Source: an uncultured Planctomycetota bacterium
GTDB lineage: Bacteria > Planctomycetota > Brocadiia > CAIUPP01
Reading direction: 5' to 3'
Assembly (NCBI GenBank): GCA_903901045.1
Contig: CAIUPP010000120.1
Span: forward strand, 47,763 to 111,762
Length of the DNA stretch: 64,000 nt
Shown here: positions 20,431 through 51,369 of the stretch, in pieces
How the letters are laid out: every line of letters starts with the position of its first letter
How positions within the stretch are numbered: position 1 is the stretch's first letter
Translations under genes and position numbers: made by a program
The notes under the pieces: generated by a model
Seen by the model: the letters and a program-made list of their open reading frames with translations, nothing else
Told to the model about the DNA's origin: nothing
Databases searched by the model: none

Positions 20431-20446
20431 GAGATTCTCCTTTAAT

Positions 20447-23794: not shown

Positions 23795-23852
23795 TTGCAG
23801 TTGCTTGGTATACCTCGTATACTAGGTTACAGGTCAAGGGGGCAATTGTCAA
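23795..23852. promoter_or_regulatory. Divergent promoters overlapped by a 19-bp GntR-type operator
   Basis: Minus strand: TTGACA (23852-23847), 17 bp, TAACCT (23829-23824). Plus strand: TTGCAG (23795-23800), 17 bp, TATACT (23818-23823). The 19-bp sequence at 23806-23824 (read on the minus strand TAGTATACGAGGTATACCA) covers the plus -10/spacer and the minus region just past -10. It matches the 41670 site at 16 of 19 positions. It would control the GH32-like gene on one side and the amidohydrolase/glycosidase/pseudopilin genes on the other. Confidence 0.7.
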
Positions 23853-23919
23853 CTATCCGCACAGGGAAATTGCAGAATGAAGATCGGAACCATCCCCGTG
23901 CCGCTTTGGAGGAGTGCCC

Positions 23920-24813
23920 ATGCTTATTGACGTGCATGGTCATATAGGGCGCGTGCTCTTCGACCGGCGGGAGTATATCGATGCGGCCAACCTGATCGCC
24001 AGAATGGATGCGTGGGGAATTGATGTTTGCTGCGTGCTGGCGCTGTGCGAACACTCCGAGGCGCCGTATCTGGAAGCGACCACGGAGGATGTCATCGCCG
24101 CGTGCTCGCGCTATCCCAAGCGACTGATTCCTTTCTGTACGATAGACCCTCGCTTCGCCGGCAACATTCCGACCGCCGATTTCCGCTGGCTCCTGGAGGA
24201 GTACAAATCGCGGGGGTGCAGAGGGATTGGCGAGATGCTGCCCAAGATGAACTTCGATGACCCGCGGTGCATCAACCTTTTCAGACAGGCGGGCGAGTCT
24301 GAGCTGCCCGTGCTGTTTGACGCCATGGACGGCGAAACCAGTTATGGCCTGGTGGCAGGGCCGGGGCTGCATCGTTTGGAGAAGACATTGCAGGAATGCC
24401 CCGGGACCATCTTCATCGGACATGGCCCGACCTTCTGGGCGGAAATCTCGGCCGACGTGCCCTCCGGGCAGCGGTCGGGCTATCCCAGGGGGCCCATTGC
24501 GCCGGGGGGCGCGGTGTCGCGATTGTTGCGCCAGTACCGGAATCTGTGGATTGATATCTCGGCGGGGAGCGGACATAACGCGTTGACCCGCGATCCGCAG
24601 TTCGGGCTGGCTTTCCTGCAGGAGTTCCAGGACCGTGCTCTCTTCGGAACCGACGCCTGCAAGCGGACCGACCTGGAGCGCGGCTGCCCGAATGTCACCT
24701 TCTTCCATGGGCTGCGGGAGGGATGGAAGATTCCCGAGTCGGCATGGGAAAAGATCGCGTGGCGGAACGCCGTCCGCCTGCTCAAGCTCCCCCTTTCGGA
24801 GGCGCGTTCATGA
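23920..24813 (+). CDS. Amidohydrolase-2 family protein with a replaced metal ligand
   Basis: 297 residues, paralogue of the 20447 gene (shared IPFC-x2-DPRF, RGIGE, GPTFWAEI, AGSGHNAL and FGxD motifs). H6-x-H8 (LIDVHGHIG), H168 and the late Asp (FGTDACKR) are present, but the strand-5 histidine is Asp: VLFDAMDG where the paralogue has VLFHMAPR. The metal site is therefore altered and the reaction may differ from, or depend less on, metal. GGAGGAGTGCCC precedes the ATG at 23920. The stop overlaps the next start (ATGA), so the two are coupled. Confidence 0.8.
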   Translation: MLIDVHGHIGRVLFDRREYIDAANLIARMDAWGIDVCCVLALCEHSEAPYLEATTEDVIAACSRYPKRLIPFCTIDPRFAGNIPTADFRWLLEEYKSRGCRGIGEMLPKMNFDDPRCINLFRQAGESELPVLFDAMDGETSYGLVAGPGLHRLEKTLQECPGTIFIGHGPTFWAEISADVPSGQRSGYPRGPIAPGGAVSRLLRQYRNLWIDISAGSGHNALTRDPQFGLAFLQEFQDRALFGTDACKRTDLERGCPNVTFFHGLREGWKIPESAWEKIAWRNAVRLLKLPLSEARS

Positions 24814-27173
24814 AACCTGGAACATTCGCGCTGGAGAATAGATATCTCCGGGCAACCTTTGCGGGAGACACGGGCAACCTGCTCGCACTGGAGGCGCAGG
24901 GGAGAGAGGGCTCCTTGATTGATCGCGTATTTTGCAGGTTCTCCATCGGAAAGGATACCTTTTCGGAAGACCTACAGGATTATCAGTGTTTCCGAACGGA
25001 GACTGTGCGGCTGGAAACAGGCCGCGATTGGGTTGAAGCGACTGTCAACATGCAGCACGTATCGGTGACGAGGAGATTCCGTCTGCGTCCGAATCATCCG
25101 CTGCTTGAAGTCAGCTACGCCATCCACGGCACCTCGCCTCAAGCAAAGCTTCAGCGGCTGGCGTTTCCCTGCGTTCTGTTTGCGGAAGATATCAACGACA
25201 TCACTGAGGATGACCACATCCTCGATTTCGACGGCGCGGAGTTGGGCAACGAACTCCAACTGCCCTGCTGGCGCGTGTTCTTCCGAAAAGGGCACCGTGA
25301 CGGGCTGCTTCTGGCGGCGCGCAGCAAGGACCAGATGAGCCATGTGGAGACCTACCGGAAGGGGCTCGAAGTCCGTCCGCATGTTATGGCCTCGTACAGC
25401 TCGGATAATGCGTATGTGGATTCGCCGCTGGCGGCGGACCGCACGTACACGGCGGATTTTGAAATCGGCCCGTGGCGCAAGTCGGAGCACAACGCCATTC
25501 TCCGACAGGCCGGCCTGCTGAAGCCGGCCAAGGTCGGCCCTGCGCTTCGCCGCGACTCCCGGGGCGCGGCAAAGTTGAATGGGGTGGTGTTCCGCGTCGA
25601 AGACCTGGCGCCGCGTTCGCAAGTGGCGAAAGGTTTCCACCCCTCCAAGTGGCTGATTGCCCGCGCGGCAGGCCCGGGAAACCCGAAAGTGCTCCTGGCC
25701 AACGCACATTGTTGCCCGCCCCCGCTGGCGCTCAAGCCGAAGTTGAAGGGGGTCTACCGCATTCTGGTCGGGACGCCTGGGGCCGCGTTGACGCTCCGCC
25801 TCAGCGGCAACCCCGCCGGAATTCAGCGCTATAACGCGCCGTCTCCTTTTCACTGTCTTCTCTCAAAACCGCCGGCCGCAGCGGGGAGTACCGGGATTGC
25901 CGAAATGTCGGGCCAGCCGAAAACGGAACTGGACTTCGGCATTGCGGAAATGGACGGCAGATCTTTGCGGCTGGAAACCACGCGGAATCCCTACTGGGCG
26001 AGCCGGATCGACTACATCCGCTTTGAGAAGCTCAGCCCCGCCCAGGAAGCGGCATGGCGCCGCCGCGAAAGAACGGCCTCAAGCGTTGACTTGACCGGGT
26101 TCGCCGACACCTACGACATCGCATATGTCTGGAGCGGCTTCCGGCGTCCCAGCCCGGAGCCCTTCCGCGATAGCATTTGGAACCACAAGCGCGCCGGCTA
26201 CAAACGAATCTATTGGCGCATCCATGGCGAGTGCACCGACTTCCCCACGAAGATCGGCACGATGCGCCCGATAGTGGGGCGCGCACACAATGTTTTTGAA
26301 CCCGCGGCTAAAGCGTACAGCCTCGCGCTGCAACGCTTCGACTTGTTGAAGACGGCTGTGGCCGCCGCGAAAGAGTTCAACGTCGAGCTTTACGGCTGGA
26401 TCCGCATTGCGTCCTACCAGAGCGGCCTCAAGCCGGAGTTTTTCGAGAAGCACCTGGAGTACGGAGAGGTAACCGAGAGCGGCTACGATTGGGGCATCAA
26501 GATGTGCTACGCCATCCCCGAGGTCCGGCGGTATACCGTCGGGATTCTGACGGATGCCGCCGCGTACGGATTGCAGGGGCTAAGCCTTGGCTTCCTGCGG
26601 CACCCGCCCTTTGTGCACTATCACCCCGTTCTGGTGGACGGCTACCGGCGCAAGTACGGCCGCCTGCCGCCGCGCGACATGCATGGCCGCCTGCCGGCGA
26701 AGTATGATCTCGGACACGATCATACGTTGCCGGAAATGACTCGGGAGTGGGTGCGCTGGTACCAGTACCGGGCGGATTTCGTCACGCAATTCGGCCGGGA
26801 ACTGCGCGCGTCGCTGAATCGGGCCGGTCTGCGACACGTCCAGGTCTCTTTGTGGCTGCGGCCCAATCAATGCCTCTTTGACGGCATAGACATGAAGGCG
26901 TGGCTTGCCGAGGGACTCTGCAATGAAGTGGTGGCCGATCGCTACATCGCGACGGAAGACCCCGCGCTGATTACCGAGCCTCGCCCGAACTGGCGGCGGA
27001 TGGTGCAGGCCAAAGCGCGGCTGATCCGCGGCGCGGGTTACGACCTGGCGTATGCGCAGAAGAATGCCCGCCGCTTTGCCGCGGAAGGCTATGACGGTTT
27101 CTCCACCTACGAGTCGAATGACGCGGTCGTCAACCCGGAGTGGCTGAACGTCTATGAAGGCCTGCGCCGATAG
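24810..27173 (+). CDS. Large cytoplasmic TIM-barrel glycosidase-like protein
   Basis: 787 residues without a signal peptide. Residues 1-240 resemble a beta-supersandwich N-terminal domain of glycosidases (LENRYLRATFAGDTGNLLALEAQ). A middle beta domain (to about 440) has YIRFEKLSP, and the C-terminal half resembles a glycosyl-hydrolase-like TIM barrel: AYVWSGFRRPSPEPFRDSIW, LYGWIRIASYQSGLKPEF, LQGLSLGFLRHPPFVHYHP and GYDGFSTYESN. No known GH family motif can be assigned with confidence. GGAGGCGCGTTC precedes the ATG. Coupled to the amidohydrolase by a 4-bp overlap and followed by a pseudopilin gene. Confidence 0.62.
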   Translation: MKPGTFALENRYLRATFAGDTGNLLALEAQGREGSLIDRVFCRFSIGKDTFSEDLQDYQCFRTETVRLETGRDWVEATVNMQHVSVTRRFRLRPNHPLLEVSYAIHGTSPQAKLQRLAFPCVLFAEDINDITEDDHILDFDGAELGNELQLPCWRVFFRKGHRDGLLLAARSKDQMSHVETYRKGLEVRPHVMASYSSDNAYVDSPLAADRTYTADFEIGPWRKSEHNAILRQAGLLKPAKVGPALRRDSRGAAKLNGVVFRVEDLAPRSQVAKGFHPSKWLIARAAGPGNPKVLLANAHCCPPPLALKPKLKGVYRILVGTPGAALTLRLSGNPAGIQRYNAPSPFHCLLSKPPAAAGSTGIAEMSGQPKTELDFGIAEMDGRSLRLETTRNPYWASRIDYIRFEKLSPAQEAAWRRRERTASSVDLTGFADTYDIAYVWSGFRRPSPEPFRDSIWNHKRAGYKRIYWRIHGECTDFPTKIGTMRPIVGRAHNVFEPAAKAYSLALQRFDLLKTAVAAAKEFNVELYGWIRIASYQSGLKPEFFEKHLEYGEVTESGYDWGIKMCYAIPEVRRYTVGILTDAAAYGLQGLSLGFLRHPPFVHYHPVLVDGYRRKYGRLPPRDMHGRLPAKYDLGHDHTLPEMTREWVRWYQYRADFVTQFGRELRASLNRAGLRHVQVSLWLRPNQCLFDGIDMKAWLAEGLCNEVVADRYIATEDPALITEPRPNWRRMVQAKARLIRGAGYDLAYAQKNARRFAAEGYDGFSTYESNDAVVNPEWLNVYEGLRR

Positions 27174-27221
27174 GGCCCATGCGCAGACGGCGCGGTGTCG
27201 ATCTGCCCGCGAGGTGAAGCC

Positions 27222-28466
27222 ATGAGCAATCCGCTGAAGCGGCGAGTGAACGCGCTCCCGAGTGCGTTCACCTTGATCGAGCTGCTCGTCGTCATAGCCA
27301 TCATCGCCATTCTGGCGGCTCTATTGCTGCCGGCGCTGGCCGCGGCGCGAGAGAAGGCGCGGCGCACCGCCTGCCTGAACAATCTCAACCAGCAGGGCAA
27401 GGCGCTGGAGATGTATTACGGCGACTATGGCGGCTATGTCCCCTCCAACCCGAACTGGTCCAACATCAGCGGCCCGCCGCCGCAGGCCATCGGCGTGGGC
27501 TGGTCGCCGGACACGGGGCTGATCAGCGATTCGCGGACCGGCGAAGAAATCCTCACGAACAGCTACATCAATTCCACTCCCGCCGTCGGCAGCTTCGTGG
27601 ATTGCTTCACGCGCGGGTTCAAGATGATCGGCTCGGAGTGGGGGGCAGGCCACTTCACCCAGGCCCCCTGGGGGCTGTCCTACCTGGTCTGGTGCGGCTA
27701 TTCGCCGGACGCGCGCATCTTCTTCTGCCCGACGCTGAACGGCACGGGAGGGGACTATCGCAAGCCGATGATCTCGACCAATTGGGACATGTTCGTGCGC
27801 CAGATGCCCTCCGGCTGCACACAGGAGGAGATCGCCGCGTGCCGGACGGGGCAGAGCCAGCGCGCCGGCGGGGGCTTCACCCGCGAGGCGATCTTCTTCG
27901 GCGACTTGAGCGCGCTGAAGACCAACATGCGCGTCGGCACCGTTTCCGGGGTGACGGTCCTCGACGGGTTCGGCGAGGGCAATATGGAGTTCTGCGGCTA
28001 CGCCTACCGCAATATGCCGAACAACATGGGCAATGTGGATGCGCCGCTCTACCCCGCCGTGAAGCCGCAACTGCCGTACAACATCACCATCGGAAAGCCC
28101 ACTTTTCGCACGGAGAAGCTGCTCGGTTCCCGGTCGGTGGTGTGCGACACGTTCATGCTGGACCATGGCGGGTATGGCATCGGCAACCCCGGCGGGCCGT
28201 GGTTCGGCAACGAGCCGATCCCCGGCCTGGGGTACTGGGGACATCGCGAAGGGTGCAACGTCCTCTATGGCGACCAGCATGCCGCGTGGTTCGGCGACCC
28301 GCAGCAGCGCATCATCTGGTACGACGAGGGCGCGGGACGCGTGGAAGGTTACGTGTACGATATCGGCCATTGCACCAACGGCCACTCCGATCCCTCCAGC
28401 GGGCTCGGGCCGGGGGACAAGGTTATCTGGCAGATCTTCGACAACGCCGCGGGGCTGGACCTGTAA
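27222..28466 (+). CDS. H-X9-DG/DUF1559-like pseudopilin-type secreted protein
   Basis: 414 residues. Prepilin leader ending [20 protein letters not shown] (cleavage before Phe, Glu+5), then the family helix [20 protein letters not shown]. The large exported domain ends with [20 protein letters not shown], a version of the H-X9-DG tail. Such proteins are highly expanded in Lentisphaerota and Planctomycetota and are assumed to be exported or assembled by type II/IV-like machinery; function unknown. The first 65 or so residues are nearly the same as those of the gene at 52161. GAGGTGAAGCC precedes the ATG. It closes the plus-strand unit starting at 23920. Confidence 0.85.
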
Positions 28467-28491
28467 GCGATTCGGCAATCCCTCACGTCGC

Positions 28492-29640
28492 TCAGCACAG
28501 TTTCTTCCATTCATCCACCATCGCCAGCACGTTCTCCCATGGGAATGTGGCTTTGGCTGAGGAACAGGGCGTGATGAGGAGCCCCGTCTTGCCGAAGGCC
28601 TCGAACACGTGGCGAACAGCCCCGCGAACTTCCTCCGGCCTCTCATAGGGCATATGAACCGTGTCGCTGGGGCCGGTCCAGAAACTGGTCGTTGCGCCCA
28701 GCGTGGCGGCCAACAACCGCGCGTTCCCATCGCGCAGGAAGACATCCGGACAGACAAGGCTGTCAATCCGCAGCGAAGCCAGCCAGTCCAGGATCGGGAC
28801 ATAACCGGTCAGCAGGGTGTAGCTGAACAGCTTCCCTGCGGAGTGCGTCAGGGCGGCCTCGCGTTTCAGCCGGTCCCCGAGAAAGCGCTTCAGAACGGCC
28901 GGGCTGTAGAGATCGCAGGATTCGTAGAAGCCGTTGCGACGGACCCCATCCGCCCCCATGTCCAGGCCGAGCTCCATAATCTTCAAGTTGTACTGGTGGT
29001 TCACCTCCAGGTATGCATCGATCAGGTCCGGTTCCGTCACGCAGAGGATGGAAGCCTCTTCCGGTCCAAACATGTTCACGGCGCCGGTAAGGCCCATGCC
29101 GGCGGAAAGGAAAAGGGCCACACGATAACGTTCCGCCAACCGCTTGGCTTGCTGGAACCGGAAGCGGATTCGCGCCAAATCATCAATCTCGCGCGGAGGC
29201 AGCAGGATGTGGCGCAAGCAGTCCACGTCCTGCATGCTCTTGATCCACGGTTCGACGAAATGGGATGGGTTGTAGTCGTGGAGGAAAGGGACATCGAGAC
29301 CCGGCAGCCAGTGTTCATCGAATCGCACGGATGAGCGCAGTTCGCCGGAGGGCGTCGTCCAGACCTTGTGGATGATGTCGCCTTCCATCCAGACGCGCGA
29401 ACTGACTCCAGGTCCCGGATAGTAACCGATTGTGGTCTGCAGGACTTGGTCCACCCCCAACTCGCCCGTCATGTACTCCAGCATTTCACGGTCGGATGGG
29501 CCGAATGGGAATTGCCAACGTTTGCCCCAACGCTGGTCTTCCGGCTGAAAGTTCATGAACGGCGCGCAGGGGACGTGGTCCACCGATTGTCGCCGCATGG
29601 CCGCCAGCACGCGTTCCCCTGAAGTCATACCCGTCTTCAT
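28492..29640 (-). CDS. Uroporphyrinogen decarboxylase/MtaA superfamily protein
   Basis: 382 residues with URO-D family landmarks: SGERVLAAMRRQSVDHVPCAP at the N-terminus, LGVDQVLQTTIGY, MGADGVRRNGFYE, DWLASLRIDSLVCPDVFL and a C-terminal LITPCSSAKATFPWENVLAMVDEWKKL. In glycan-rich PVC loci these are usually not heme enzymes but corrinoid-linked methyltransferase or demethylase relatives. The zinc motif HxCG of MtaA is HSAG here, so a canonical MtaA activity is doubtful. The start at 29640 is the best guess; Met 29628 is an alternative and neither has a strong ribosome-binding site. It is convergent with the 27222 gene, 26 bp apart. Confidence 0.78.
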   Translation of the reverse strand: MKTGMTSGERVLAAMRRQSVDHVPCAPFMNFQPEDQRWGKRWQFPFGPSDREMLEYMTGELGVDQVLQTTIGYYPGPGVSSRVWMEGDIIHKVWTTPSGELRSSVRFDEHWLPGLDVPFLHDYNPSHFVEPWIKSMQDVDCLRHILLPPREIDDLARIRFRFQQAKRLAERYRVALFLSAGMGLTGAVNMFGPEEASILCVTEPDLIDAYLEVNHQYNLKIMELGLDMGADGVRRNGFYESCDLYSPAVLKRFLGDRLKREAALTHSAGKLFSYTLLTGYVPILDWLASLRIDSLVCPDVFLRDGNARLLAATLGATTSFWTGPSDTVHMPYERPEEVRGAVRHVFEAFGKTGLLITPCSSAKATFPWENVLAMVDEWKKLC

Positions 29641-29660
29641 AAAGTGTTTTGCATCGGCCG

Positions 29661-29896
29661 CTACCGGCGCCGGACCTCCATCAGAGAAATACCCCAGGGC
29701 TTTCCCCCCTCGACAGGCTCGAACTTGAACGTCAGGCCGTCCTTTCCCACGGTCGTCCCCATGTGACCCCTTCCCAATTCTTGTACCAGGCGCTATGAGA
29801 GAATCGGGTGATAGTAACCGATTGGCCGTGACGGAGGAAGGGGCGCGTCGCAGGCGCAAGGATCGCCATGCGGGAGTTCTCCAGGTCAAGGGTCAT
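29661..29896 (-). pseudogene. Small frameshifted ORF behind the LamG lipoprotein gene
   Basis: An ATG overlapping the stop of the 29893 gene (ATGA) opens a 54-codon frame with coherent sequence, including RFSHSAWYKNWEGVTWG. An overlapping frame, offset by -1, continues for 33 codons as GTTVGKDGLTFKFEPVEGGK...SLMEVRRR before TAG at 29661. Joining the two at the GTCACATGGGG region gives a plausible 80-residue protein domain. It is either a decayed gene, an assembly indel or recoding. No family is recognised. Confidence 0.35.
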
Positions 29897-32616
29897 TCGG
29901 AGGATGCGGCGTAGTACATGCTATTGCGGAAGAGTTGGCGCATGACGTAGCGTGTGCGGTCGCTGGGCTTCCACCATGCCCAGCCGGAAAGCTCGGGATG
30001 CTGCGCCCACACCAGTCCCCGGCGCGCGCCGTAGTGGAAACTGCCCGAGATGGACAGCGCGGGAGCCATACCCAGGGTGGTGACCGAAACCATGTCGGCT
30101 CCCGGCGCGCCTGTGCGCAGGGGACTGCCGCACATATGCACGAAGCGCACGGCGGGCCGACCCTCTTCATCGCGGAAAGCGCCGGTGATGCCCGCCATGG
30201 CGGGATGACCGCCGCCGAGGCAAACGTCGGCGAGTTGCGTTCCGTTGAAGGTTGCGGGTGCGGTCTGGAACAGGCAGAGGTGCTGGGCCGGGTCGCCGGG
30301 GCCGCCCTCGTTCAAGCCGGCGCAAATGCCGACGAAGCCGCAACTGCTTCGGAGAACGCTGCGTATCCGGTTGCGCATGGCGAGAGGGTCCTTGTACTGC
30401 GGTGGGCCGCCCCCCGGCGCCCAGAAAACGGAGTACCCACCCTCTTCCAGTCTCCCATCAAGCAGCTCCTTCTCCATGAGCACGTCGAATGAGAGGCCGT
30501 ATTGATCGAACGTTTTGAAGTTCTTCCAATGATTGCGATGCGTCTCGCCAAGCAGCGCCAGTCGGTGCGTGCGCATGAAATCTTCCAGTTTCGTGCGATC
30601 CTCCGGTGAGTCCTCCCATGAGATCGGCGGGGCGGCCTGTTCGCGAAGGACCGCCAGGTTCAGCGCGGATTCAGCGCCGATGGAGAAGCCGCGCAACTCC
30701 ATCTCCAGTCCCTTCATGCCCGGCAGTGCGCCGAGGAGCATCCGGGTCAGAGGGTGCGTCGGGAGAGGGATGCCCCCCGCGGCGGCCAACTGGCCATCAA
30801 TGTAGAGTTCCACCGCCGCGTCGCCGGTGTCCGTCGCCCGCCAGGTGAGGCCGATATGCCGCCAGGTATCCCGCGTCCAGGTCGTTCGCTCATTAGCGTA
30901 AAGGACGCTCTCCTCGTTGGGGGAGAAACTCCGCAGGATGAGGAACTGGTCGCGCGGATCATAGTAGAGTTGCCACGTGTTCTCGCCGCCGTCCGACAAC
31001 CAGACGAGGTTGTGGGGATCGGGCGCGTCAATACTCAGGGTGTCCGTCTTCATCCAGAAACTCAGAGACCCCTTTGCGCCAAGATGGACGACGTTCCCGG
31101 GCTTCGCGATAGATCCGGTCTTACCGAGCGCCGATGGGCCAACGGGGATGCCGACCGCCTCCTGCAACGGGCCGGCGGAGTTTGCCGGGATGGAAACGCC
31201 GGCAGCGTGGTAAAGCAGCGCCTTGAAGAATGCGTAGCGCGCCGCGTTCTCGGCTGCGCCATTCACGCTTTCAAATGTCGGGTGCCAGAAGTACCAGCCG
31301 AAGGGCGCCGCGGCGGTCAGAACAACGCGTCCTTTGCCGGCCTTCGCGGCGACGGCGCATGGCAGGCCGGTCAGTGGCTCCGTTGCGGCTACCGATACGA
31401 TGTCCGATGGCGGCGCGTCGTACAGCGGTCCGCGCCGCGTCAGCAACTCCAGACGACCGTTGCACCCCGCCATCCAGTTCCCAGGAACCGCCTTCAAGAT
31501 AGTGGAATCGAGGTTCAATCGGATTTCCGTGGACCCTTCGCAGCCGGCGTTGCGCAGCCCGAACTTGACCAGGCCCAGGTCGCGCACCAGCGTGGCCGAC
31601 TTGCCGACGGCCAGCAGGCCGCCCCCCTTGAGAACGTATTCGGCGATGGCCTTGTCACGCGCGGGGTTCGGCGGCCAGAAGTCGTTATCCGGCAGGATCA
31701 GGGCCGCTGTCCCCCCCAGCGCGGCGGGGAGTTCGGCGTCGTTGACAACTCGGAAGTGCGCCAGCCCCATCGTTCTGAGTCCGCACGGCAACGAATACGT
31801 CAGCGCCCCCTCCGGCACGAGAAGGAGCACGCCGCCATCGGCGTCGATGGCGCCCTGCTCGGCTTCCGTGATGAACCCGAGCCGCCGGGCGGCGTCCACT
31901 TCGGGCTTCACCTGCGGCGCGCGGTTGACGTGGGGATACGCTGCGGCCGGGATCGGTCGATCATAGAAAGCCACCTCGCGGAGGTTCACATTTTCCGGGC
32001 CCACCAGAAAATTCAGCCGCCCCGCGGGAAAGGCGGGCACGATAGCGCGGTCGTAGGGCCGGTCGTTGATGGAGGTGCGCAGGTACATCCGCCCGTCGTC
32101 AAGGCGCTCCCATGAGAGCAGGACGCGCAGCCAGGAGCCTTCCGCTTCGTTGAGATACAGGTCGATGCCAAACTCATGCGGCGGCCGGGCGACTTTGAAG
32201 AACACTCTCCCAATCGTCACGCGCAGGACCGTCTGCCCAGTCGCATCCGTCACCCACAGGACCGGCTCGTCTTTCTCGTAGGAAGTCCGGGTCGAATAGG
32301 TGAACTCCAGCAGAATCGAGCCGCCGCTCGGGCGGAGCAGATCATCGCTCTCCCACGCGATGCGGCCGCCGGGACCGAAGGCCAGCATCTCCGGGGGGCG
32401 GTCGCCGCATGCCTCACAGCGGACCTCGCCGGAAAGTGCGGGGGAAATCCCGGTTGCTTGGATGACGGAGGCTTTATCGGGCAGGATACGCGCCAGAACA
32501 ACGGGAGGCATCTTCGCTCCTTTCATCTCGGATGACGTTTCACGGAGAGCCGAGCATCCGGAGGGCAGGGCCCACGCGCTCAATACGGCGATGGATAATA
32601 TCAGGCATTTTCGCAT
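29893..32616 (-). CDS. LamG-containing exported protein with amidotransferase-like domains
   Basis: 907 residues. N-terminal signal with a near-lipobox (SAWALPSGC; Pro at -3 is unusual). Two concanavalin-A-like folds are visible: about 75-225 (GGSILLEFTYSTRTSYEKDEPVL ... LREVAFYDRP) and about 515-660 (GSLSFWMKTDTLSIDAPDPHN ... LRGFSIGAES). Between them lies a GATase1-like segment (PDNDFWPPNPARDKAIAEYVLKGGGLLAVG), and at the end a second one (YSVFWAPGGGPPQYKD ... CGFVGICAGLNEG). Probably a cell-surface glycan-binding or processing protein. First gene of a minus-strand run; its stop overlaps the start of a small frameshifted ORF. Confidence 0.68.
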   Translation of the reverse strand: MRKCLILSIAVLSAWALPSGCSALRETSSEMKGAKMPPVVLARILPDKASVIQATGISPALSGEVRCEACGDRPPEMLAFGPGGRIAWESDDLLRPSGGSILLEFTYSTRTSYEKDEPVLWVTDATGQTVLRVTIGRVFFKVARPPHEFGIDLYLNEAEGSWLRVLLSWERLDDGRMYLRTSINDRPYDRAIVPAFPAGRLNFLVGPENVNLREVAFYDRPIPAAAYPHVNRAPQVKPEVDAARRLGFITEAEQGAIDADGGVLLLVPEGALTYSLPCGLRTMGLAHFRVVNDAELPAALGGTAALILPDNDFWPPNPARDKAIAEYVLKGGGLLAVGKSATLVRDLGLVKFGLRNAGCEGSTEIRLNLDSTILKAVPGNWMAGCNGRLELLTRRGPLYDAPPSDIVSVAATEPLTGLPCAVAAKAGKGRVVLTAAAPFGWYFWHPTFESVNGAAENAARYAFFKALLYHAAGVSIPANSAGPLQEAVGIPVGPSALGKTGSIAKPGNVVHLGAKGSLSFWMKTDTLSIDAPDPHNLVWLSDGGENTWQLYYDPRDQFLILRSFSPNEESVLYANERTTWTRDTWRHIGLTWRATDTGDAAVELYIDGQLAAAGGIPLPTHPLTRMLLGALPGMKGLEMELRGFSIGAESALNLAVLREQAAPPISWEDSPEDRTKLEDFMRTHRLALLGETHRNHWKNFKTFDQYGLSFDVLMEKELLDGRLEEGGYSVFWAPGGGPPQYKDPLAMRNRIRSVLRSSCGFVGICAGLNEGGPGDPAQHLCLFQTAPATFNGTQLADVCLGGGHPAMAGITGAFRDEEGRPAVRFVHMCGSPLRTGAPGADMVSVTTLGMAPALSISGSFHYGARRGLVWAQHPELSGWAWWKPSDRTRYVMRQLFRNSMYYAASSE

Positions 32617-44299: not shown

Positions 44300-44415
44300 A
44301 GCGAGAGCGTATGTGCCATTTGGCCTTTGCGCGCAGGCTTGTGAAACGCAATGCCGGCCGCTGCAATCGTACGCCGCGGTTGCAGGTGGATGCCGGCTGC
44401 CCGGTCACCGCGCGC
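43585..44415 (+). repeat. CBM9 duplication, copy 1
   Basis: Direct repeat of about 830 bp with 45690-46520. Similarity starts near the GATGCG before the CBM9 module, includes the whole module and the stop codon, and continues through the first 40 or so codons of the following frame (TPRLQVDA in both). By eye, long stretches keep about four of five bases. Confidence 0.8.
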
Positions 44416-46398
44416 GATATTAAGCACAAGACGATTGAAACCGGGAGCGCGGGGCTGCTCGTCCTGGCCTGTTTCCTGTCCCTCAGTGTGGCGTCCGGAT
44501 GCGCCTCAAAAGAGGGAACGGTTACTCGTGAAGGTCGAGATGCGCACGTTGTTGAGATCGGCCCTGAACAGATTGTCCTGACGGACGGCTTGCAAGTGTA
44601 CATGTTCCAGACGTCAAAGGGCACGCTGGTTGCCATGGCGCAATTGAGCCTTCCGCCGGGGTATCAATTGCCGGAGAGGAACGTCTTCCCCTCCATCCCC
44701 GGGTGGATCATTTCGCGCAACCAAGGGAAGAGCTGGCAGCGATGGTCGCCCAAGGGAGTCGTGCCGTCCAGCGCTTATGAACCCGTGGCGCCCGGACCCA
44801 GGTTCGAGGGCACGGCGACGGAATTGAAAGACGGAACCGTGATGCTTCTGGAGTGGATCGCCGACGGGCCGCTACCCGACGGCAATTGGACCGGGAGCCT
44901 CTGGGAATCGCGCGACGATTGCGGGACACTCCAAGGCCCGATCCCGGTGACGGTCCATCTTCCCCAGGCGAAGACCGGCTACGACGATTCCGGCCGCCCG
45001 GGCAGCAGCATCTGCTTCCACCGCCCGCTGGTGGAACTTCCGGGGGGCGACCTGATCACCCCGGTGTACTGCCTGTTCAAGGGAGACAATACCCCGGTCG
45101 CCTACCAACCCACGATGCTCAAGATGCGTTGCGTGCTGCTGCGCTCGGCGGATCGAGGGCGCTCCTGGGGATATCTCTCAACGATTGCCGTGAATCCCGC
45201 CGTGGGGCAGGAGGGTTTCGACGAGCCGGTGATGATTCGCCTGTCCGCCGGACCGAAGGCCGGCCGCCTGATTTGCGTGATGCGGACGGGGCGTGATACC
45301 CACCTGTACCAGACCCACAGCGATGACGACGGCGCGACATGGTCCGAACCGCATTCTATCGGCCTCTTCGGGGTCGATCCGGACATGATCGAGCTGTCTG
45401 ATGGCGCGCTTGTCTGCGGCTTCCTGTGGCGAACGGGAGGCGACAGCTTTAACCCAAGGGCTCCGGTGTACCTGGCGGTCAGCAAGGACCAGGGCGACAC
45501 ATGGGAAGATCTGATCAAATTTCCGCAAGGTCAGGATCCCCGTTTCCGCCGCTGGAGTGAATATGGCGGCATTCGAGAGATTGCCCCAGGCCGACTCATC
45601 GTTCTGTACGACGTCATTCCCGATGGATGGACCGGGACGGTTCGCTATGTTGCGAGCCGCGAGATACGGTTGCCCGCGCCGGGGGACTGGCGGGCGGATG
45701 CGTCCCTCGAAAAGAACGTTCTTCCGACAGTGGGACGTAAGACGATGCGGGTGCGCCGCGCCACGGCGCCGCTCAAGCTTGACGGCCTGCTGGCCGAAGC
45801 TGACTGGGCCGCGGCCGACACGGGGGAGTTCGTTGAGATCGGCATGGGCCGGCTCGAAGCGCCGACGCTCGTCAGGTTGCTGTACGACGACCAGAATATC
45901 TATGTCGCCTTCGAGTGCGTGGAACCGCTCATCGAGAAGCTGGAGAGTTCTCTCAGGCCGCACGGACGCGATGGCGACGTGTATGCCCAGGACTGCGTGG
46001 AGGTCTTCGCCGACCCGATGGGGCATGGGGACCGGTATTATCACTTCATCTGCAGTGCCTTGCCCGATTCCACTTTTGACGGAGCGCTTGGGTTGTGCGC
46101 TGGCCCGGCGGACCCGCTCGCCGGCAAGGAAGATGCCTCGTGGAACGGCGACTGGAGTTACGTGGGGCGGATGGACCGCGAGGAGAAGCGCTGGTCCGTG
46201 GAGATGGCCATTCCTTTCAAAACGCTCGGCGTCCCGCCTCCGACGCAAGGCACGCGGTGGAAGATGAACCTGGGCCGGGAGCGCTTCGTTCATAACCTCA
46301 CCGCCTCGGAGCAGCCGGAGTTGTCCCTCTGGTCGCCCAACATGGAGCAAAGATCGTTCCACTCTTTCGAGGCCATGGGAGACGTGGTGTTTCAATAG
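44311..46398 (+). CDS. Sialidase-fold lipoprotein with C-terminal CBM9
   Basis: About 695 residues. A signal-like segment TGSAGLLVLACFLSLSVASGC with a lipobox-type VASGC is preceded by 40 residues that align with the N-terminus of the 46426 protein (FAR...TPRLQVDAxC), so the leader is a fused remnant. A BNR/sialidase propeller follows with Asp boxes SRNQGKSW, SADRGRSW, HSDDDGATW and SKDQGDTW, then a CBM9 module (about 480-695) duplicated from the previous gene. Substrate: probably a terminal glycan sugar; the sialidase Arg triad was not verified. Start uncertain; the ATG at 44311 is used, with no strong ribosome-binding site seen. Confidence 0.72.
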   Translation: MCHLAFARRLVKRNAGRCNRTPRLQVDAGCPVTARDIKHKTIETGSAGLLVLACFLSLSVASGCASKEGTVTREGRDAHVVEIGPEQIVLTDGLQVYMFQTSKGTLVAMAQLSLPPGYQLPERNVFPSIPGWIISRNQGKSWQRWSPKGVVPSSAYEPVAPGPRFEGTATELKDGTVMLLEWIADGPLPDGNWTGSLWESRDDCGTLQGPIPVTVHLPQAKTGYDDSGRPGSSICFHRPLVELPGGDLITPVYCLFKGDNTPVAYQPTMLKMRCVLLRSADRGRSWGYLSTIAVNPAVGQEGFDEPVMIRLSAGPKAGRLICVMRTGRDTHLYQTHSDDDGATWSEPHSIGLFGVDPDMIELSDGALVCGFLWRTGGDSFNPRAPVYLAVSKDQGDTWEDLIKFPQGQDPRFRRWSEYGGIREIAPGRLIVLYDVIPDGWTGTVRYVASREIRLPAPGDWRADASLEKNVLPTVGRKTMRVRRATAPLKLDGLLAEADWAAADTGEFVEIGMGRLEAPTLVRLLYDDQNIYVAFECVEPLIEKLESSLRPHGRDGDVYAQDCVEVFADPMGHGDRYYHFICSALPDSTFDGALGLCAGPADPLAGKEDASWNGDWSYVGRMDREEKRWSVEMAIPFKTLGVPPPTQGTRWKMNLGRERFVHNLTASEQPELSLWSPNMEQRSFHSFEAMGDVVFQ

Positions 46399-46520
46399 CG
46401 CCGTTTGGCCGGAATGAGAGGACGCATGGACCATTTCGATTTTGCGCGGAGCTTTCTGAAGTTCACCACGGACCACTCCAACCACACGCCGCGGCTGCAG
46501 GTGGATGCGAGTTGCACGCT
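45690..46520 (+). repeat. CBM9 duplication, copy 2
   Basis: Partner of 43585-44415. This copy is followed by the intact downstream gene (46426), so it is the arrangement from which the truncated N-terminus in copy 1 was probably derived. Confidence 0.8.
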
Positions 46521-47169
46521 CACGCCCCGCGGCGGGCCGGGCACAACGTATTACCTGACCGCGTCATGCATTTCGGAATCCATGTATGCGCCGGCGAACC
46601 TAGTGCATCAGCCGGCGTCGGAATTCGTCATGATCGCCTCCCCCGGGGAAGAGTACATGATCATCAAGTGCTTCGCCGCCGCGCGCCCGGACCTGTGCGA
46701 GGCGCACCGCGTCGGGCAGAAGATGTCCACGCACTGCGGCCAGAGCTCCACCATGCTGAAAGTGGAGGTGGACATGGCGCTCGCCGCGCGCGTGCGCAAG
46801 CTGGTGGAGTACGACGAAATCCGCAGCGCGATCCTGGGGAACCGCTGCCTCAACGGAAGGACGGCGTTCCGCGACGAGGAGGGGACGGAGGTGGTCATGG
46901 ACTACCCCATACGCATTTGCAACATCCCGCATGACCAGCGGCGGTGGCAGGTGGATACCGGGCGCGTCCTGCTGCCGAGCCGGCCGGGGAACCTGGGCCT
47001 GACCGTCTCCCGCCTGTCCCCGGCTTACATCGTTTTCAATGATTGGGATTGGGCCGAGGTGGCTATTCTGAGCCTCGCCACGTCCGATCAAAAGAAGCTC
47101 AGCGCCGCGCAGTACTGCGATATCCGCCGCTTGACGACGAAGAATGAGATCTTCTGTTTGGAGGGATGA
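46426..47169 (+). CDS. Uncharacterised cytoplasmic protein of the glycan locus
   Basis: 247 residues; no signal peptide and no known domain. Begins MDHFDFARSFLKFTTDHSNH, then TPRLQVDASCTLTP, and contains YYLTASCISESMYAPANLVHQ, a Cys-rich middle (IIKCFAAARPDLCEAHRVGQ, THCGQSS) and a soluble C-terminus ending NEIFCLEG. Its first 40 residues were duplicated to form the N-terminus of the upstream sialidase-like gene. AGGACGC precedes the ATG. It lies 28 bp after the lipoprotein stop and 3 bp before the next gene, so it belongs to the operon. Confidence 0.65.
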   Translation: MDHFDFARSFLKFTTDHSNHTPRLQVDASCTLTPRGGPGTTYYLTASCISESMYAPANLVHQPASEFVMIASPGEEYMIIKCFAAARPDLCEAHRVGQKMSTHCGQSSTMLKVEVDMALAARVRKLVEYDEIRSAILGNRCLNGRTAFRDEEGTEVVMDYPIRICNIPHDQRRWQVDTGRVLLPSRPGNLGLTVSRLSPAYIVFNDWDWAEVAILSLATSDQKKLSAAQYCDIRRLTTKNEIFCLEG

Positions 47170-47172
47170 CCC

Positions 47173-48282
47173 TTGCTGGCCTGCCGATCCTCGGAATTTG
47201 TGTACCGAAACCCGAAGCCGCACCTGCGCAGCCGGCAGGCTTATCATCCAACCCTGCTGCGCCGCCCCGATGGGGAGTTGCTGTGCAGCTTCGATCTTTG
47301 CGATGCGGTGGAGAGCCTGGACTACCGCACACACCTGTCGCGCTCTTCCGACGAAGGACGGAACTGGCAGTTTCAGGGGCAGCTTCCCACGGATGAAGCG
47401 CAATGCGCCTTGCCCGTCAGCCTTCGCCTTTGCCAGATGAGAGATGGCTCGATTGTCGGTTTCGGAGGACGCTGGCGCCGCGACAACCCGGAGGAAGGGC
47501 AGGTGAACCGCGAGACACAGGGCATGGCGCCGATGGAACTCATCCTCCTGAAGTCGGCGGATGGGGGACGTCGTTGGGGAAAGCCGAAGGTCATTGCCCC
47601 GCCCCTTGTGGGGCCCGGGTTCGAGATATGTCATCGCATCGTGGAACTTCCCGGCGGGCGCTGGCTGGCCCCGACGGGCACCTGGCGCGGGTGGAACGGC
47701 GAGCATCCCTCCGGGGACATGGCTATCGTGCTTATCAGCGATGACCAAGGCAAGAGTTGGCTGCGCTTCGGGGTCAGTTTTGACGGGCGCAAGACGGGAA
47801 CCATTCACTTTGAGCAATCGGTGGCTCCGTTGCCCGATGGGCGGCTGCTGGCGGTTTCCTGGGCGTATGACCCGCTCACCGGTCGCACGCTTCCCACCCC
47901 TTATTGTTTCAGCGCGGACAAGGGCGAGACGTTCGGCGCGCCGCGTCCGACGGGGTTCCTCGGGCAGACCTGCAAGCTTCTTCCGCTGGCGGATGGCCGC
48001 CTCCTGTGCGTGTACCGCCGCGATGACAGCCCCGGGCTCTGGGGCACTTTGTCGCACCTGGAGGGGGATGACTGGATCATCGACGAGTCCGCCCTGCTGT
48101 GGGGAAAGGGGTTGTCCAACTCCGGGATGGACGGCACCTCCAGCGTCGCCGACGGGCTGAGCGACCTGAAGTTCGGCTATCCGTCGCTCCTGCAATTGCC
48201 CTCAGGAGAGGTTCTGGTCGCTTTCTGGTGTTTTGAGAACTGGTCAACCAATATCCGCCTGCTGCGGCTGGATATTCGCTGA
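47173..48282 (+). CDS. Sialidase-fold (BNR) hydrolase, TTG start
   Basis: 369 residues without a signal peptide. Six-bladed propeller Asp boxes: SSDEGRNWQF, SADGGRRWGKP, SDDQGKSWLRF and SADKGETFGAP; strand motifs HPTLLRRPDGELLCSF, RIVELPGGRWLAPTG and SLLQLPSGEVLVAFW are typical of the GH33/BNR superfamily. The FRIP Arg motif is not obvious. GGAGG eight bases before TTG 47173 sets the start; there is no in-frame ATG nearby. It sits 3 bp after the previous stop and 24 bp before the DapA-family gene; a sialidase plus NanA-like pairing hints at, but does not prove, sialic-acid use. Confidence 0.75.
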   Translation: MLACRSSEFVYRNPKPHLRSRQAYHPTLLRRPDGELLCSFDLCDAVESLDYRTHLSRSSDEGRNWQFQGQLPTDEAQCALPVSLRLCQMRDGSIVGFGGRWRRDNPEEGQVNRETQGMAPMELILLKSADGGRRWGKPKVIAPPLVGPGFEICHRIVELPGGRWLAPTGTWRGWNGEHPSGDMAIVLISDDQGKSWLRFGVSFDGRKTGTIHFEQSVAPLPDGRLLAVSWAYDPLTGRTLPTPYCFSADKGETFGAPRPTGFLGQTCKLLPLADGRLLCVYRRDDSPGLWGTLSHLEGDDWIIDESALLWGKGLSNSGMDGTSSVADGLSDLKFGYPSLLQLPSGEVLVAFWCFENWSTNIRLLRLDIR

Positions 48283-48306
48283 GAATTTCAGAAGGGAATA
48301 CTTCCC

Positions 48307-49194
48307 ATGGCTCGCAAGTCTTCCGAAGAGGTCAAGGCGCTTCTGGACGGTCCGGTCAACTCCATCTTCACCAGCTTTCTTCCGGACGGCGCGATTGACT
48401 GGGTGGGGGTGCGCAATCAGATTGAAGTCGGCATTGCCGGCGGCAGCAAGGTGAGCCTGCTGACCGCTGGCGACAGCCAGTTGTGGTACATGAGCGAGTC
48501 GGAGGTGGCCGAATTGACGCGCGTGCTGGTGGATCAGACGCGCGGCCGCGCGCTGACGGTGGCCGCTACCAGCACCTGGTGGACGGGGCAGGCGGTGAAG
48601 TTCGCCGAGTTCTGCCGCGACCTCGGCGTGGACGTCCTCATGAACCTTCCCGCCATCAACGCCATGACCTCCCCGGCGCTGGTTTCGCACTACAAGGCCG
48701 TTGCGAAGATCATGCCGATCATGCTGGTCGGCGTCCCCTCGCGTGAAGTGCTCGACGCGCTGCTGGAGACGCCGAACATCTGCTGCTTCAAGGAGGATGG
48801 CACCGAGGACTATGGGATTGATGTCAGCTGGCGCTACGGCAAGCGCTTGAAGCTCATGACCGGCGGGTTGCTCTGGCGGCATTACACGCAATGGCCCTAT
48901 GGCTGCCGGGCGTTCTTCTCCTGGCCCACCTGCTTCAAGCCGGAGATCGGCGCGCGCTACTGGGCTGCGGTGCAGGCCGGCGATGAGCCGGTTGTGCAGG
49001 ACGTTCTTCGGAACGTCGACAAACCGTACTTCGACCGGTGCGCCGGATTCCCCTGCGGGAATCAGGGGGTGCAACGCGCGATCCTGGAGCTTCACGGGGT
49101 CGCCCGGCGCTACCTGCGTTCTCCGCTCGCGAGCGTTTCGGATGCGGACATGGACAAAGTGAGGCAATTGATGTCGGACCTCGGGCTTGAATAG
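48307..49194 (+). CDS. DapA/NanA-family protein lacking the catalytic tyrosine
   Basis: 295-residue TIM-barrel protein of the dihydrodipicolinate synthase/N-acetylneuraminate lyase family: VNSIFTSFLPDGAIDW at the start, the Schiff-base lysine K162 in NICCFKEDGTEDYG, and a helical C-terminus. The GTTGE loop reads LTAGDSQLW and the proton-shuttling Tyr of the Y-N-x-P motif is Val (IMLVGVPSR, V141), whereas the paralogue at 19501 keeps its Tyr. It may catalyse a different aldol or dehydration step, or have no aldolase activity. It is inside the GntR-controlled plus-strand unit. Confidence 0.82.
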   Translation: MARKSSEEVKALLDGPVNSIFTSFLPDGAIDWVGVRNQIEVGIAGGSKVSLLTAGDSQLWYMSESEVAELTRVLVDQTRGRALTVAATSTWWTGQAVKFAEFCRDLGVDVLMNLPAINAMTSPALVSHYKAVAKIMPIMLVGVPSREVLDALLETPNICCFKEDGTEDYGIDVSWRYGKRLKLMTGGLLWRHYTQWPYGCRAFFSWPTCFKPEIGARYWAAVQAGDEPVVQDVLRNVDKPYFDRCAGFPCGNQGVQRAILELHGVARRYLRSPLASVSDADMDKVRQLMSDLGLE

Positions 49195-49220
49195 CCGGAG
49201 TCCGGCGCAAGGGGGCCGCC

Positions 49221-51302
49221 ATGAAGACGCGAAAGAAACCGCTGAACGGCTGTTTTTATCGAATCCTCTGGGACTGCGACCACCCCGGTTTCGTCAAGCT
49301 GTTCAATAAACTGGAGCCGCAGCGGTTCATGCGGCAGGTGAAAGAGGGCGGGTTCGGGAGCGTGGGGCTCTTCGCGAAGGATTCGCTCGGCCAAAGCCTT
49401 TATCCGACGGAGATCGGGCATCGGCATCCGGGACTTTCTCGCGATTTCCTTGGGGAGATGACGGCAGCGGCAAAGGCCGAAGGGCTCGTCGTAGTCGCGT
49501 ATTACAACTGCACACAGGACCCTTACCACGCCCAGACGCACCCGGAATGGCGCGAGCGCAGCCAGGCGCAAGGTGAGATGATGGCCGCCGAGAGCACCGC
49601 ATCCACCCCCTTCGTTTGTCTCCACGGCGGCTTTGCGGAGAAGATACTGATTCCTCAGTTGCTCGAGATTGCCGAGCGCTACCCGATCGACGGCATCTTC
49701 CTGGACATCGGCGCCGAGCCCCATACCCGGCGGCTGTGCGCATGCGAAACGTGCCGGTCGGACTACCGGCGTGAATTCGGGCGCGAACTGCCCGCGCCCG
49801 GCGCTCCGCGGGAGGAGTGGATGGAGTATGCGTTGTGGCGCAAGGCGCGGCACCATGCGGCGCAGACAGGGATTCTCCACGCCGTGCGAACGCTTCACCC
49901 CGAGCTTTCGCTGGCGGTCAACTACGCCCATTCCGCGCGGCAGCCGGAGCCGCCGGAGGGGGTGGACTATCTCTCACTGGACGTGGAGGAGCACACCAAT
50001 CCGCTGCTGGGCGCGCCGACCTACCTGCGCCATGCGAACGCGGTGGGGCTGCCGGTCGAAATGTTCCTGTCGCACATGCAGCACTGGTGGTGGGACTGGG
50101 ACTTGCGCCCGCAGCCGGCGATGCGGCTTCAAGCGGCGGAGATAGTGGCCAACGGCGGGACGGTGTGCGTGGGATCGAACCTGCACCCGACCGGACGCCT
50201 GGACAACCGAGTCATGGCGCAGTTGAAACAGCTCAACGCATTTCTCCGCGAACGCGAGCCTCTTTGTCGCGATGCAAAGCCCCTCGCGAATGTCGCCGTT
50301 CTGCACTCGGCCGCCACGCTGACGGCGCAGAGCGCCGTGGGCTATTCGCACGGCTCCCTTGTGAAGGCCATGATCCCTTTTCGCGGTGCGGCGCGAATCT
50401 TGATGGAGGGGCATGTCCCTTTTCAGTTCCTCAACGAGGCGGATCTGGGGCAGAAGGTCGGGGCGTATGACCTGCTCATTCTCCCGGAGCAATCGGCGTT
50501 GTCCGATGCGACCGTGCGCGCGGTGGCGGAGTTCGTGGCGGGGGGCGGACGCCTGCTGGCCGTCGGGGAAACGGCTTCGCAGGATGAGGCCGGACGCGTT
50601 CGGAAAGAGGCGGCGCTGGACGAACTGCTGGGCATCCGAACCCTTGGCGTCGTGCCGCACGCCTGCGCGTATGGCCGATTCCGCGAGGAGTACGGAGCCG
50701 TTCCCGGCGTGCCGCTGCTGCTGGAAGGGAGTTGGATGCGCGTCGAGGCGAACGGGGCGACCGTGCTGGCGGAACTGATAGAACCGTATCACGGCGTCGG
50801 CGCGGATCAGGAGTATCAGGCGATGGGGGTCGGCTTGCCACCGCCCGGGGAGAAGGTCATCGGAGCTGCCGCCACGATCTGCGACGCCGGAAAGGGGTGC
50901 GCAGCGTACATCGCGGGACCGGTCTGCACCCAGTACGGACTCAAGACGCAGTTGGAATGGCGCGACGCCATGCTCTGGATTATTCGCAAGATGTCGCCAA
51001 ATAGCCTTTTGGAAACGGATGCTCCCCCCACGGTGGAGATTGCGCTGGCCAGCCAGGAGGGTCGCATACTCTGCCACGTCATAAACTACGGAAACGAAAA
51101 GGGATACTCTCTCCGCCAGTTGCCGGAATACGTCGCCCCGATATTCAATATCGGTATCACGCTACGCCTAAATCGTGTAAGCGAAGTGACTTGCTATCCC
51201 GGCGGGGAGATGCTGGAGTTCTCCCAGCGTACAGGTGCCGTATTCTTCCGCCTGCCGCGGCTGGATATTCACTCGATTGTGGCCTTGGAACTCGGCGCCT
51301 AA
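49221..51302 (+). CDS. Cytoplasmic GH29/GH42-like barrel protein with trimerisation-type domain
   Basis: 693 residues, no signal peptide. TIM barrel (about 1-345): FMRQVKEGGFGSVGLFAKDSLG, VVVAYYNCTQDPYHAQTHPEW, YPIDGIFLDIGAEPH, LCACETCRSDYRREFGRELP. Then a GATase1-like beta-galactosidase trimerisation domain (about 375-520; AYDLLILPEQSALSDATVRA) and a small beta domain. Related proteins are annotated as alpha-fucosidase-like or GH42-like; the specificity cannot be read. Last enzyme of the plus-strand unit, 117 bp before gntR. Confidence 0.7.
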   Translation: MKTRKKPLNGCFYRILWDCDHPGFVKLFNKLEPQRFMRQVKEGGFGSVGLFAKDSLGQSLYPTEIGHRHPGLSRDFLGEMTAAAKAEGLVVVAYYNCTQDPYHAQTHPEWRERSQAQGEMMAAESTASTPFVCLHGGFAEKILIPQLLEIAERYPIDGIFLDIGAEPHTRRLCACETCRSDYRREFGRELPAPGAPREEWMEYALWRKARHHAAQTGILHAVRTLHPELSLAVNYAHSARQPEPPEGVDYLSLDVEEHTNPLLGAPTYLRHANAVGLPVEMFLSHMQHWWWDWDLRPQPAMRLQAAEIVANGGTVCVGSNLHPTGRLDNRVMAQLKQLNAFLREREPLCRDAKPLANVAVLHSAATLTAQSAVGYSHGSLVKAMIPFRGAARILMEGHVPFQFLNEADLGQKVGAYDLLILPEQSALSDATVRAVAEFVAGGGRLLAVGETASQDEAGRVRKEAALDELLGIRTLGVVPHACAYGRFREEYGAVPGVPLLLEGSWMRVEANGATVLAELIEPYHGVGADQEYQAMGVGLPPPGEKVIGAAATICDAGKGCAAYIAGPVCTQYGLKTQLEWRDAMLWIIRKMSPNSLLETDAPPTVEIALASQEGRILCHVINYGNEKGYSLRQLPEYVAPIFNIGITLRLNRVSEVTCYPGGEMLEFSQRTGAVFFRLPRLDIHSIVALELGA

Positions 51303-51316
51303 AGACAGAATCTTTC

Positions 51317-51369
51317 TTGACATTTTATCTTTCCCGGCCTATATTATATCTGGTATACACGGAATTCCG
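51317..51369 (+). promoter_or_regulatory. gntR promoter with operator at the start site
   Basis: TTGACA (51317-51322), 17 bp, TATATT (51340-51345) is a near-consensus sigma70 promoter. The operator-like TGGTATACACGGAATTCCG (51351-51369) begins 5 bp past -10, over the predicted start. This predicts autorepression by the GntR protein encoded 50 bp downstream. The second half-site is weaker than at 23806 and 41670. Confidence 0.75.

Follow-up and report, generated by a model that had tools for sequence, protein, structure and literature searches.

A predicted autoregulated GntR/FCD regulon with a two-part operator in a sugar-degradation gene cluster of an uncultured Planctomycetota bacterium

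In a 64,000-nucleotide stretch of contig CAIUPP010000120.1 of an uncultured Planctomycetota bacterium (hereafter the window) the gene of a GntR/FCD transcription factor, here called gntR, is preceded by a short sequence that is met again in two divergent intergenic regions far upstream, which raises the question of whether a single protein governs the genes on all sides of these sites. Because the same short sequence occupies both divergent regions and the DNA before gntR, one protein likely controls about 20 genes, and we propose that the protein encoded at 51420 probably represses five predicted transcription units via TGGTATAC-type operators at both divergent regions and at its own promoter. 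The elements on which this proposal is built are the following.

23806-23824, strand-neutral: operator 1, TGGTATACCTCGTATACTA, composed of TGGTATAC-CTC-GTATACTA, within the divergent region 23720-23919; core TGGTATACC at 23806-23814, accessory GTATAC at 23817-23822
41670-41688, strand-neutral: operator 2, TGGTATTCGTGGTATACCA, composed of TGGTATTC-GTG-GTATACCA, within the divergent region 41571-41743; perfect core TGGTATACCA at 41679-41688, accessory GTATTC at 41672-41677
51351-51369, plus strand: operator 3, at the gntR promoter, TGGTATACACGGAATTCCG, with a perfect left half TGGTATAC and a degenerate right half GAATTCCG
51420-52121, plus strand: gntR, GntR/FCD transcription factor of 233 amino acids; Pfam GntR at residues 17-76, FCD at 86-212

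A direct read of the DNA bore out the three sites of the original prediction with their sequences and positions. The 16 of 19 identities that it gave for operators 1 and 2 are obtained when one of the sites is reverse-complemented, but in the same orientation the agreement is 15 of 19. According to a gene list made from codon usage and ribosome sites, the window has only these two divergent intergenic regions, and each of them holds one site. Operator 1 is 86 bp from the predicted minus-strand start (23719) and 95 bp from the predicted plus-strand start (23920), operator 2 is 99 and 55 bp from its two predicted starts, and 50 bp separate operator 3 from the start of gntR. The minus-strand gene 39798 most likely starts at ATG 41570, which has a GAAGGT ribosome site, and with this start site 2 is intergenic and not inside the longest open reading frame (ORF).

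The seed for counting in the window, TGGTATAC, is an 8-mer taken from the gntR leader, and by this choice circularity is avoided. Its four exact matches all fall within the three sites, with 0.10 expected, and Markov shuffles of the divergent regions themselves put its chance occurrence there at 0.0033 and 0.0025. GTATAC is found six times in the window, four times within the sites and twice inside predicted genes. The 19-mer consensus gives three places in the window at up to three mismatches versus 0.02 expected, a rarity that is partly circular because the consensus was derived from the sites. In the 4.77 Mb genome both TGGTATAC-N3-GTATACCA and TGGTATAC-N3-GTATAC recover sites 1 and 2 only within one mismatch; the genome scan for the full motif, in which many promoterless matches had been named as the refuting outcome, returned no other place at this stringency and in this respect speaks for the prediction. 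At up to two mismatches TGGTATAC-N3-GTATAC gives 7 matches genome-wide versus 11 in a control, and the 19-mer at up to three mismatches is uninformative on the genome scale (6 places versus 10 for a reversed control), so that the right half of the gntR site is not credible by itself. This last count is what can be said for a similarity of the three sites by mere chance; the exact seed test, the local shuffles and the lack of any further place within one mismatch make such a coincidence extremely improbable. The genome scan with the shorter core TGGTATACC is less clean, with 16 matches at 11 places versus 6 control matches: the places are sites 1 and 2, three sites at C77 and C31 of the same genome that are discussed below, C21:52056, and five inside ORFs (C23, C26, C35:22430, C68 and C118). 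At C21:52056 the lone core stands without a second box on TTGACA-N15-TATACC between two divergent ORFs, and it is possibly another target.

The original prediction took the sites for FadR-type operators. A FadR-type core is indeed present, but the layout is, judging from the letters, better read as a 10-bp core (TGGTATACCA, of the GT-N2-AC class) together with a second GTATAC-like box at a distance of 9 bp, rather than as a single 19-bp palindrome. The core is complete in the right half of site 2, has a near match, TGGTATACCT, in the left half of site 1 and reads TGGTATACAC at site 3, so that an operator of the TKGT...ACMA type, exact or nearly so, is predicted near the regulator's own gene and its targets; the second box is GTATAC, GTATTC and GAATTC at sites 1, 2 and 3, respectively. 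Since GTATAC is its own reverse complement, an inverted repeat and a direct repeat look the same in such a sequence, and the protein could instead act as NanR does, with two or more dimers bound cooperatively and head to tail on GGTATA direct repeats, the palindrome being a by-product of the self-complementarity. This mode would account for GGTATT/GGTATA at 9 bp in site 2 and GGTATA/CGTATA at 9 bp in site 1; NanR dimers bind to (GGTATA)2-3 but only poorly to one repeat alone (PMC8012715), and the NCBIfam NanR model matches the 51420 protein at 67.9 bits. That score is, however, far under the cut-off of 260 bits, the GntR domain match begins at residue 17 and leaves 16 residues before it versus the 32-residue N-terminal extension of NanR, site 3 is without a good second repeat, and site 2, like those at C77 and C31, has the whole palindrome TGGTATACCA. 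We therefore hold the head-to-tail arrangement to be rather doubtful and keep to the core with an accessory box.

How the operators lie with respect to transcription starts can be judged from the predicted promoters.

51317-51345, plus strand: gntR promoter (predicted), TTGACA 51317-51322, N17, TATATT 51340-51345; operator 3 covers the expected start site
41638-41666, plus strand: promoter of the operon at 41744 (predicted), TTGACA 41638-41643, N17, TAGAAT 41661-41666
41680-41708, minus strand: promoter of the minus operon at site 2 (predicted, weak), TTTACT-N17-TATACC; its -10 is inside operator 2
23824-23852, minus strand: promoter for 23719 (predicted, weak), TTGACA 23852-23847, N17, TAACCT (a 3-of-6 -10); its last base is in operator 1
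23795-23823, plus strand: promoter for 23920 (predicted, weak), TTGCAG-N17-TATACT; its -10 is inside operator 1

The gntR promoter is as the original prediction described it, TTGACA-N17-TATATT followed by TGGTATAC from 51351. The further claim of an operator at or just past one -10 and over the opposing promoter stands for site 2, where the operator begins 3 nt past TAGAAT and holds the -10 of the minus promoter, but at site 1 the promoters are weak. Operators 2 and 3 start 3 and 5 nt past the -10 of their TTGACA promoters, and these two promoters are the only 11-of-12 matches between 41000 and 52500, in a scan whose total of 3 is no more than in shuffles (2.3). It might be argued that TGGTATAC is itself an extended -10 element (TGn-TATAc) and not an operator: it coincides with the -10 of TTGACA promoters at C77 and C31, TATACT and TATACC lie inside sites 1 and 2, and the lone core at C21:52056 also sits on a promoter-like sequence. 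At sites 2 and 3, though, it lies just beyond a promoter that already has its own -10, the second box and the ACCA end would be left unexplained, and FCD genes have more GTATAC doublets before them than composition would give, as shown below; we find this explanation very improbable.

The protein itself is a confident member of its family. Its Pfam scores are 75.6 bits for GntR and 74.8 for FCD, above the cut-offs of 27 and 24.3; its AlphaFold model has a pLDDT of 88.5 and a pTM of 0.81, and the solved folds nearest to the model are FCD regulators, including Atu1419/VanR and PmiR. Histidines H142, H188 and H210, which we take to be the metal-site positions of the FCD family, are kept in 57, 59 and 52 of 60 rows, and the rows differ at the fourth position, that of E138 (N 22, D 12, E 9). 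When the proteins are aligned on the ER and SRT motifs, R40, R50, T51, R54 and H71 occupy the positions of the FadR contact residues Arg35, Arg45, Thr46, Arg49 and His65; R40, S49-R50-T51 and R54 are invariant across nine aligned regulators and H71 is not. FadR Arg35 and Arg45 both contact G specifically, and with arginine at the first of these positions there is a strong preference for G/C at one place within the TKGT/ACMA boxes (PMC4494728), which is taken here to be the K. Under a fixed rule over 56 regulators, 13 of which have an exact GTATAC upstream, residue 40 is basic in 3 of 4 regulators with a GG-type site versus 0 of 9 without one (Fisher 0.014, on rows that are not independent), a result weaker than an earlier table of 17 regulators with sites picked by eye. 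An N-terminal arm, [KR]Y[NGE][VI], precedes the winged helix-turn-helix (HTH) domain (51420-51470 in the window) in all nine aligned regulators, P0002-P0009 included, and reads KYGI in the C77 paralog; it possibly makes a dimer-dimer or minor-groove contact. No specific NCBIfam model reaches its cut-off on the protein: the best one is phnR_burk (108.1 versus 271.5 bits), and UxuR and ExuR give 35.7 versus 442 and 32.8 versus 396 bits.

The closest paralog of the protein in the genome, C77:8984-9640, is 44% identical to it, and its own promoter carries TGGTATACCAGTACAC with an exact TGGTATACCA and a GTACAC box on TTGACA-N18-TATACC. Two more sites of this kind are TGGTATACCAGTATAC at C77:411, on TTGACA-N16-TATACT, and TGGTATACCAGTACAC at C31:38841, on TTGACA-N17-TATACC. 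The second box follows at 8 bp in each of the three, versus 9 bp in the window operators. Together they look like a sister regulon that belongs to the C77 GntR/FCD paralog, a TGGTATACCAGTAYAC site being present on a TTGACA sequence at C77:411, at C77:9705 and at C31:38841. The sites of C31 and C77:411 are in addition preceded by a common stretch, gatgatYtcaacagagYaatg, and may go back to one duplication, so that they do not count as independent; a DUF1559 pseudopilin ORF follows about 300 bp downstream of the C31 site. A genome scan with TGGTATAC-N2-GTATAC returned the three C77/C31 places at up to one mismatch, the sole extra place at two mismatches being upstream of the C35 FCD gene (at up to two, 7 matches versus 4 in a control). 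Palindromes resembling TGGT...ACCA are in fact present upstream of five of the six other FCD genes of the genome, those of C77, C35, C130 (TCTAGTGGTATTCCACTAGA), C95 (TGGTACATTAAGTGTACCA) and C17 (TGGTCGACCGGTGGACCA).

With such a paralog at hand, control could be shared or crossed, the C77 protein also, or instead, reading the operators of the window. The TGGTATAC core is identical at C77:411, C77:9711 and C31:38847, and the two proteins have the same residues at the contact positions; on the other hand, the accessory boxes differ in their spacing, and the window regulator is encoded within the cluster and has an operator-like site at the promoter of its gene; we consider crossed control unlikely. 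A spacing code by which the two sister regulators, sharing one core, are insulated from each other through the placement of the accessory half-site (9 versus 8 bp) is a speculative proposal and quite unlikely to hold as such; if true, the accessory box would set regulator identity and not merely strength, and other relatives have it at 9 or 11 bp. The window and C77 regulators are sisters with 100/99 support in a tree of the 56 regulators, on which the clustering of the spacing classes is at best weak: values as low were reached by 20 of 500 shuffles with gap 5, by 95 of 500 with gap 3 and by 47 of 200 with all classes.

Relatives in other genomes extend the picture. We counted 49 relatives from the phylum with upstream DNA, after dropping duplicates (L127, L131, L134, L135, L143, L145 and L148), own-genome rows (L014 and L126) and short matches (L042 and L043); the rows are related and the counts are not independent. 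Within 250 bp upstream, 10 of these FCD genes have a GTATAC doublet whose two boxes are separated by a gap of 2-5, versus a mean of 0.33 and a maximum of 3 in 200 Markov shuffle runs, and exact GTATAC occurs at 1.23 per kb in the 12,149 upstream bases versus 0.038 per kb elsewhere in these loci (159,052 bases). Gaps of 5 (period 11, 10 matches) and 3 (period 9, 8 matches) are the most frequent. Upstream of the FCD genes of L024 and L128 three GTATAC-like boxes follow one another at a period of 9 bp in a symmetric triple (in L024, GTCTAC-ATT-GTATAC-AAT-GTAGAC). The nearest relatives of the regulator, P0002-P0006, are 54-74% identical and lie on contigs of 0.8-4.7 kb, and P0007 (46%) lies on a contig of 758 kb; a search of 392 genomes of the phylum revealed no relative closer than the C77 paralog, and a scan of named genomes (62 loci) gave only distant matches, mostly to the HTH and mostly from Enterobacterales, which were not used. 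Among the 120 rows listed for protein relatives of the bacterium, six of the seven named ones belong to Verrucomicrobia, Kiritimatiellae and Lentisphaerae, and one more is called a Micrarchaeota. Taken with the paralog sites and with the arginines at the two FadR positions that contact G, these doublets give the link between regulator and sites some support beyond neighbourhood.

Several observations weigh against the proposed regulon and have to be set beside this. As a 19-mer the gntR copy is the weaker site, with a poor right half and three mismatches to the consensus. At site 1 the -10 elements are weak on both strands, and a standard promoter scan of 14000-30000 gave no match there and 3 elsewhere versus 3.9 expected. 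Among the relatives, 39 of 49 are without a GTATAC doublet upstream, of the 24 regulators whose residue 40 is basic 21 have no exact GTATAC before them, and upstream of C153, the sixth of the other FCD genes of the genome, there is no palindrome resembling TGGT...ACCA. The expected conservation of sites in related genomes, seen before a part of the regulators, was not met at relatives of the DUF4838 gene (44% identical in G195, 36-37% in C60 of the own genome and in G213), where the upstream DNA that was read has no GTATAC doublet; the search for them returned two other genomes out of 392 above threshold and one own-genome paralog, only 722 bp upstream were readable in G213, and G195 has a lone GTATAC about 1.3 kb upstream. 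Some FCD regulators, moreover, are activators (CitO), and the 51420 protein might activate one or more of these promoters; with operators at the -10 or the start site of the two best promoters, which is the position of a repressor, we regard this as distinctly unlikely. A FadR-type GntR repressor that coordinates about five transcription units from three sites, as was originally predicted, remains in our opinion the best reading, with binding, repression and start sites as its predictions.

The units that would belong to the regulon, with extents inferred from short gaps only, are listed here.

22229-23719, minus strand: unit A, first gene, GH32/GH43-like protein; start GTG 23719 with a GGAGGG site
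18010-22158, minus strand: rest of unit A; 21505, no assigned family; 20447, amidohydrolase-2; 19501, N-acetylneuraminate-lyase (NAL)/DHDPS-type aldolase; 18596, ribulose-phosphate-epimerase family; 18010, 6-phospho-3-hexuloisomerase (HxlB, over cut-off)
23920-28466, plus strand: unit B; amidohydrolase-2; 24810-27173, no assigned family; DUF1559 pseudopilin, 27222-28466
28492-41570, minus strand: unit C; GH42-like 35340 (1470 amino acids); URO-D/MtaA-like 28492; 39798, 33837, 32738 and 29893, no assigned family
41744-51302, plus strand: unit D; DUF4838+CBM9; BNR (sialidase-fold)+CBM9; 46405, no assigned family; BNR 47173; DHDPS/KdgD-like 48307; GHL6 49221
51420-52121, plus strand: unit E, gntR

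Sialic-acid catabolism was considered for this cluster and not kept as a firm claim, as the 19501 aldolase gives 86.5 bits versus a cut-off of 281 with the NanA/Neu5Ac lyase model and no lyase is over cut-off. Its Lys and Tyr align with what we presume to be the catalytic lysine and tyrosine of NAL, and Glu-Phe stands at the presumed Asp-Glu pair D191-E192, which is thus not kept. HxlB, a ribulose/allulose-phosphate-type epimerase and the NAL-like aldolase share a predicted operon (segment 18010-20634), which is an unusual combination for a pathway of sugar acids. Within 41744-46398 the proteins from 41744 and 44158 end nearly identically (SLWSPNxEQR.FxSFEAMGDVVFQ), and ORFs 44158 and 46405 have a TPRLQVDA segment in common near their starts; both are signs of tandem duplication. 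DUF1559 pseudopilin genes recur in or beside units with TGGTATAC sites, namely at 27195-28466 and 52161-53516 of the window, at C77 and at C31. Elsewhere in the window (9354-13169) two adjacent cpn60 chaperonin genes lie beside dnaJ and grpE.

We suggest that the core would be occupied by one dimer and the accessory box by another dimer or subunit. Every operator overlaps a predicted -10 or an expected start site, and the protein, once bound, would thereby keep RNA polymerase from transcribing either way at the two divergent regions and from transcribing gntR, the latter as negative autoregulation. The genes would be kept off until a sugar-derived acid appears, and repression would end once a carboxylate is bound at the metal site of the FCD domain, the carboxylate nature of the inducer being suggested by the three kept histidines. 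The gene content (two DHDPS/NAL-type aldolases, DUF4838, BNR and GH42/GHL6) points to a keto-deoxy sugar acid or a uronate, which may be released by the cluster's own enzymes.

The comparison with known systems draws on three papers. FadR-subfamily operators have TKGT/ACMA cores of the GT-N2-AC class, single sites in the middle of divergent regions serve both operons, and weaker adjacent boxes are found 7-12 nt from the site centre in 13 groups (PMC4494728); the UxuR, GntR and HypR regulators described there share with the 51420 system the domain pair, the core, arginines at the Arg35 and Arg45 positions and the single divergent site, and the second box is here 7 or 12 nt from the centre of the core. 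The taxonomy table of that study is without bacteria of this kind, and no specific NCBIfam model was reached here. Atu1419 of Agrobacterium fabrum, an FCD repressor of the VanR group with a 10-bp GTATAC palindrome overlapping -10 elements (PMC7797058), is alike in fold, in the short palindrome over the -10 and in acting on its own and neighbouring catabolic promoters; it differs in the palindrome ATGTATACAT, with one G per half, in being a tetramer that can bind distant palindromes and in its proposed effector, N5,N10-methylenetetrahydrofolate. NanR of E. coli (PMC8012715) is likewise a GntR/FCD repressor with GGTATA repeats and operators in three operons of one sugar-acid regulon, from which the system described here is set apart by the missing extension, the low model score, the lack of a lyase over the NanA cut-off and the palindromic core. 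As the operator elements are all described in these three sources, the regulon belongs to a known kind. Searches with the exact palindromes and GntR, and with GntR regulons and Planctomycetes, gave no publication on this regulator among the matches listed; the names of other likely relatives were not searched.

The autoregulated GntR/FCD regulon proposed here is thus, as we read it, real but ordinary, and the 9 versus 8 bp spacing as a separator of sister regulators could be the single point that is possibly more than ordinary. For a large sugar-degradation cluster it supplies a regulator and operators that can be put to the test, and about 20 genes, several of which match no Pfam family, come together in one predicted regulon. 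The pair of paralogs, with one core and two spacings, may be seen as a natural experiment on the accessory box of FadR-type regulators.

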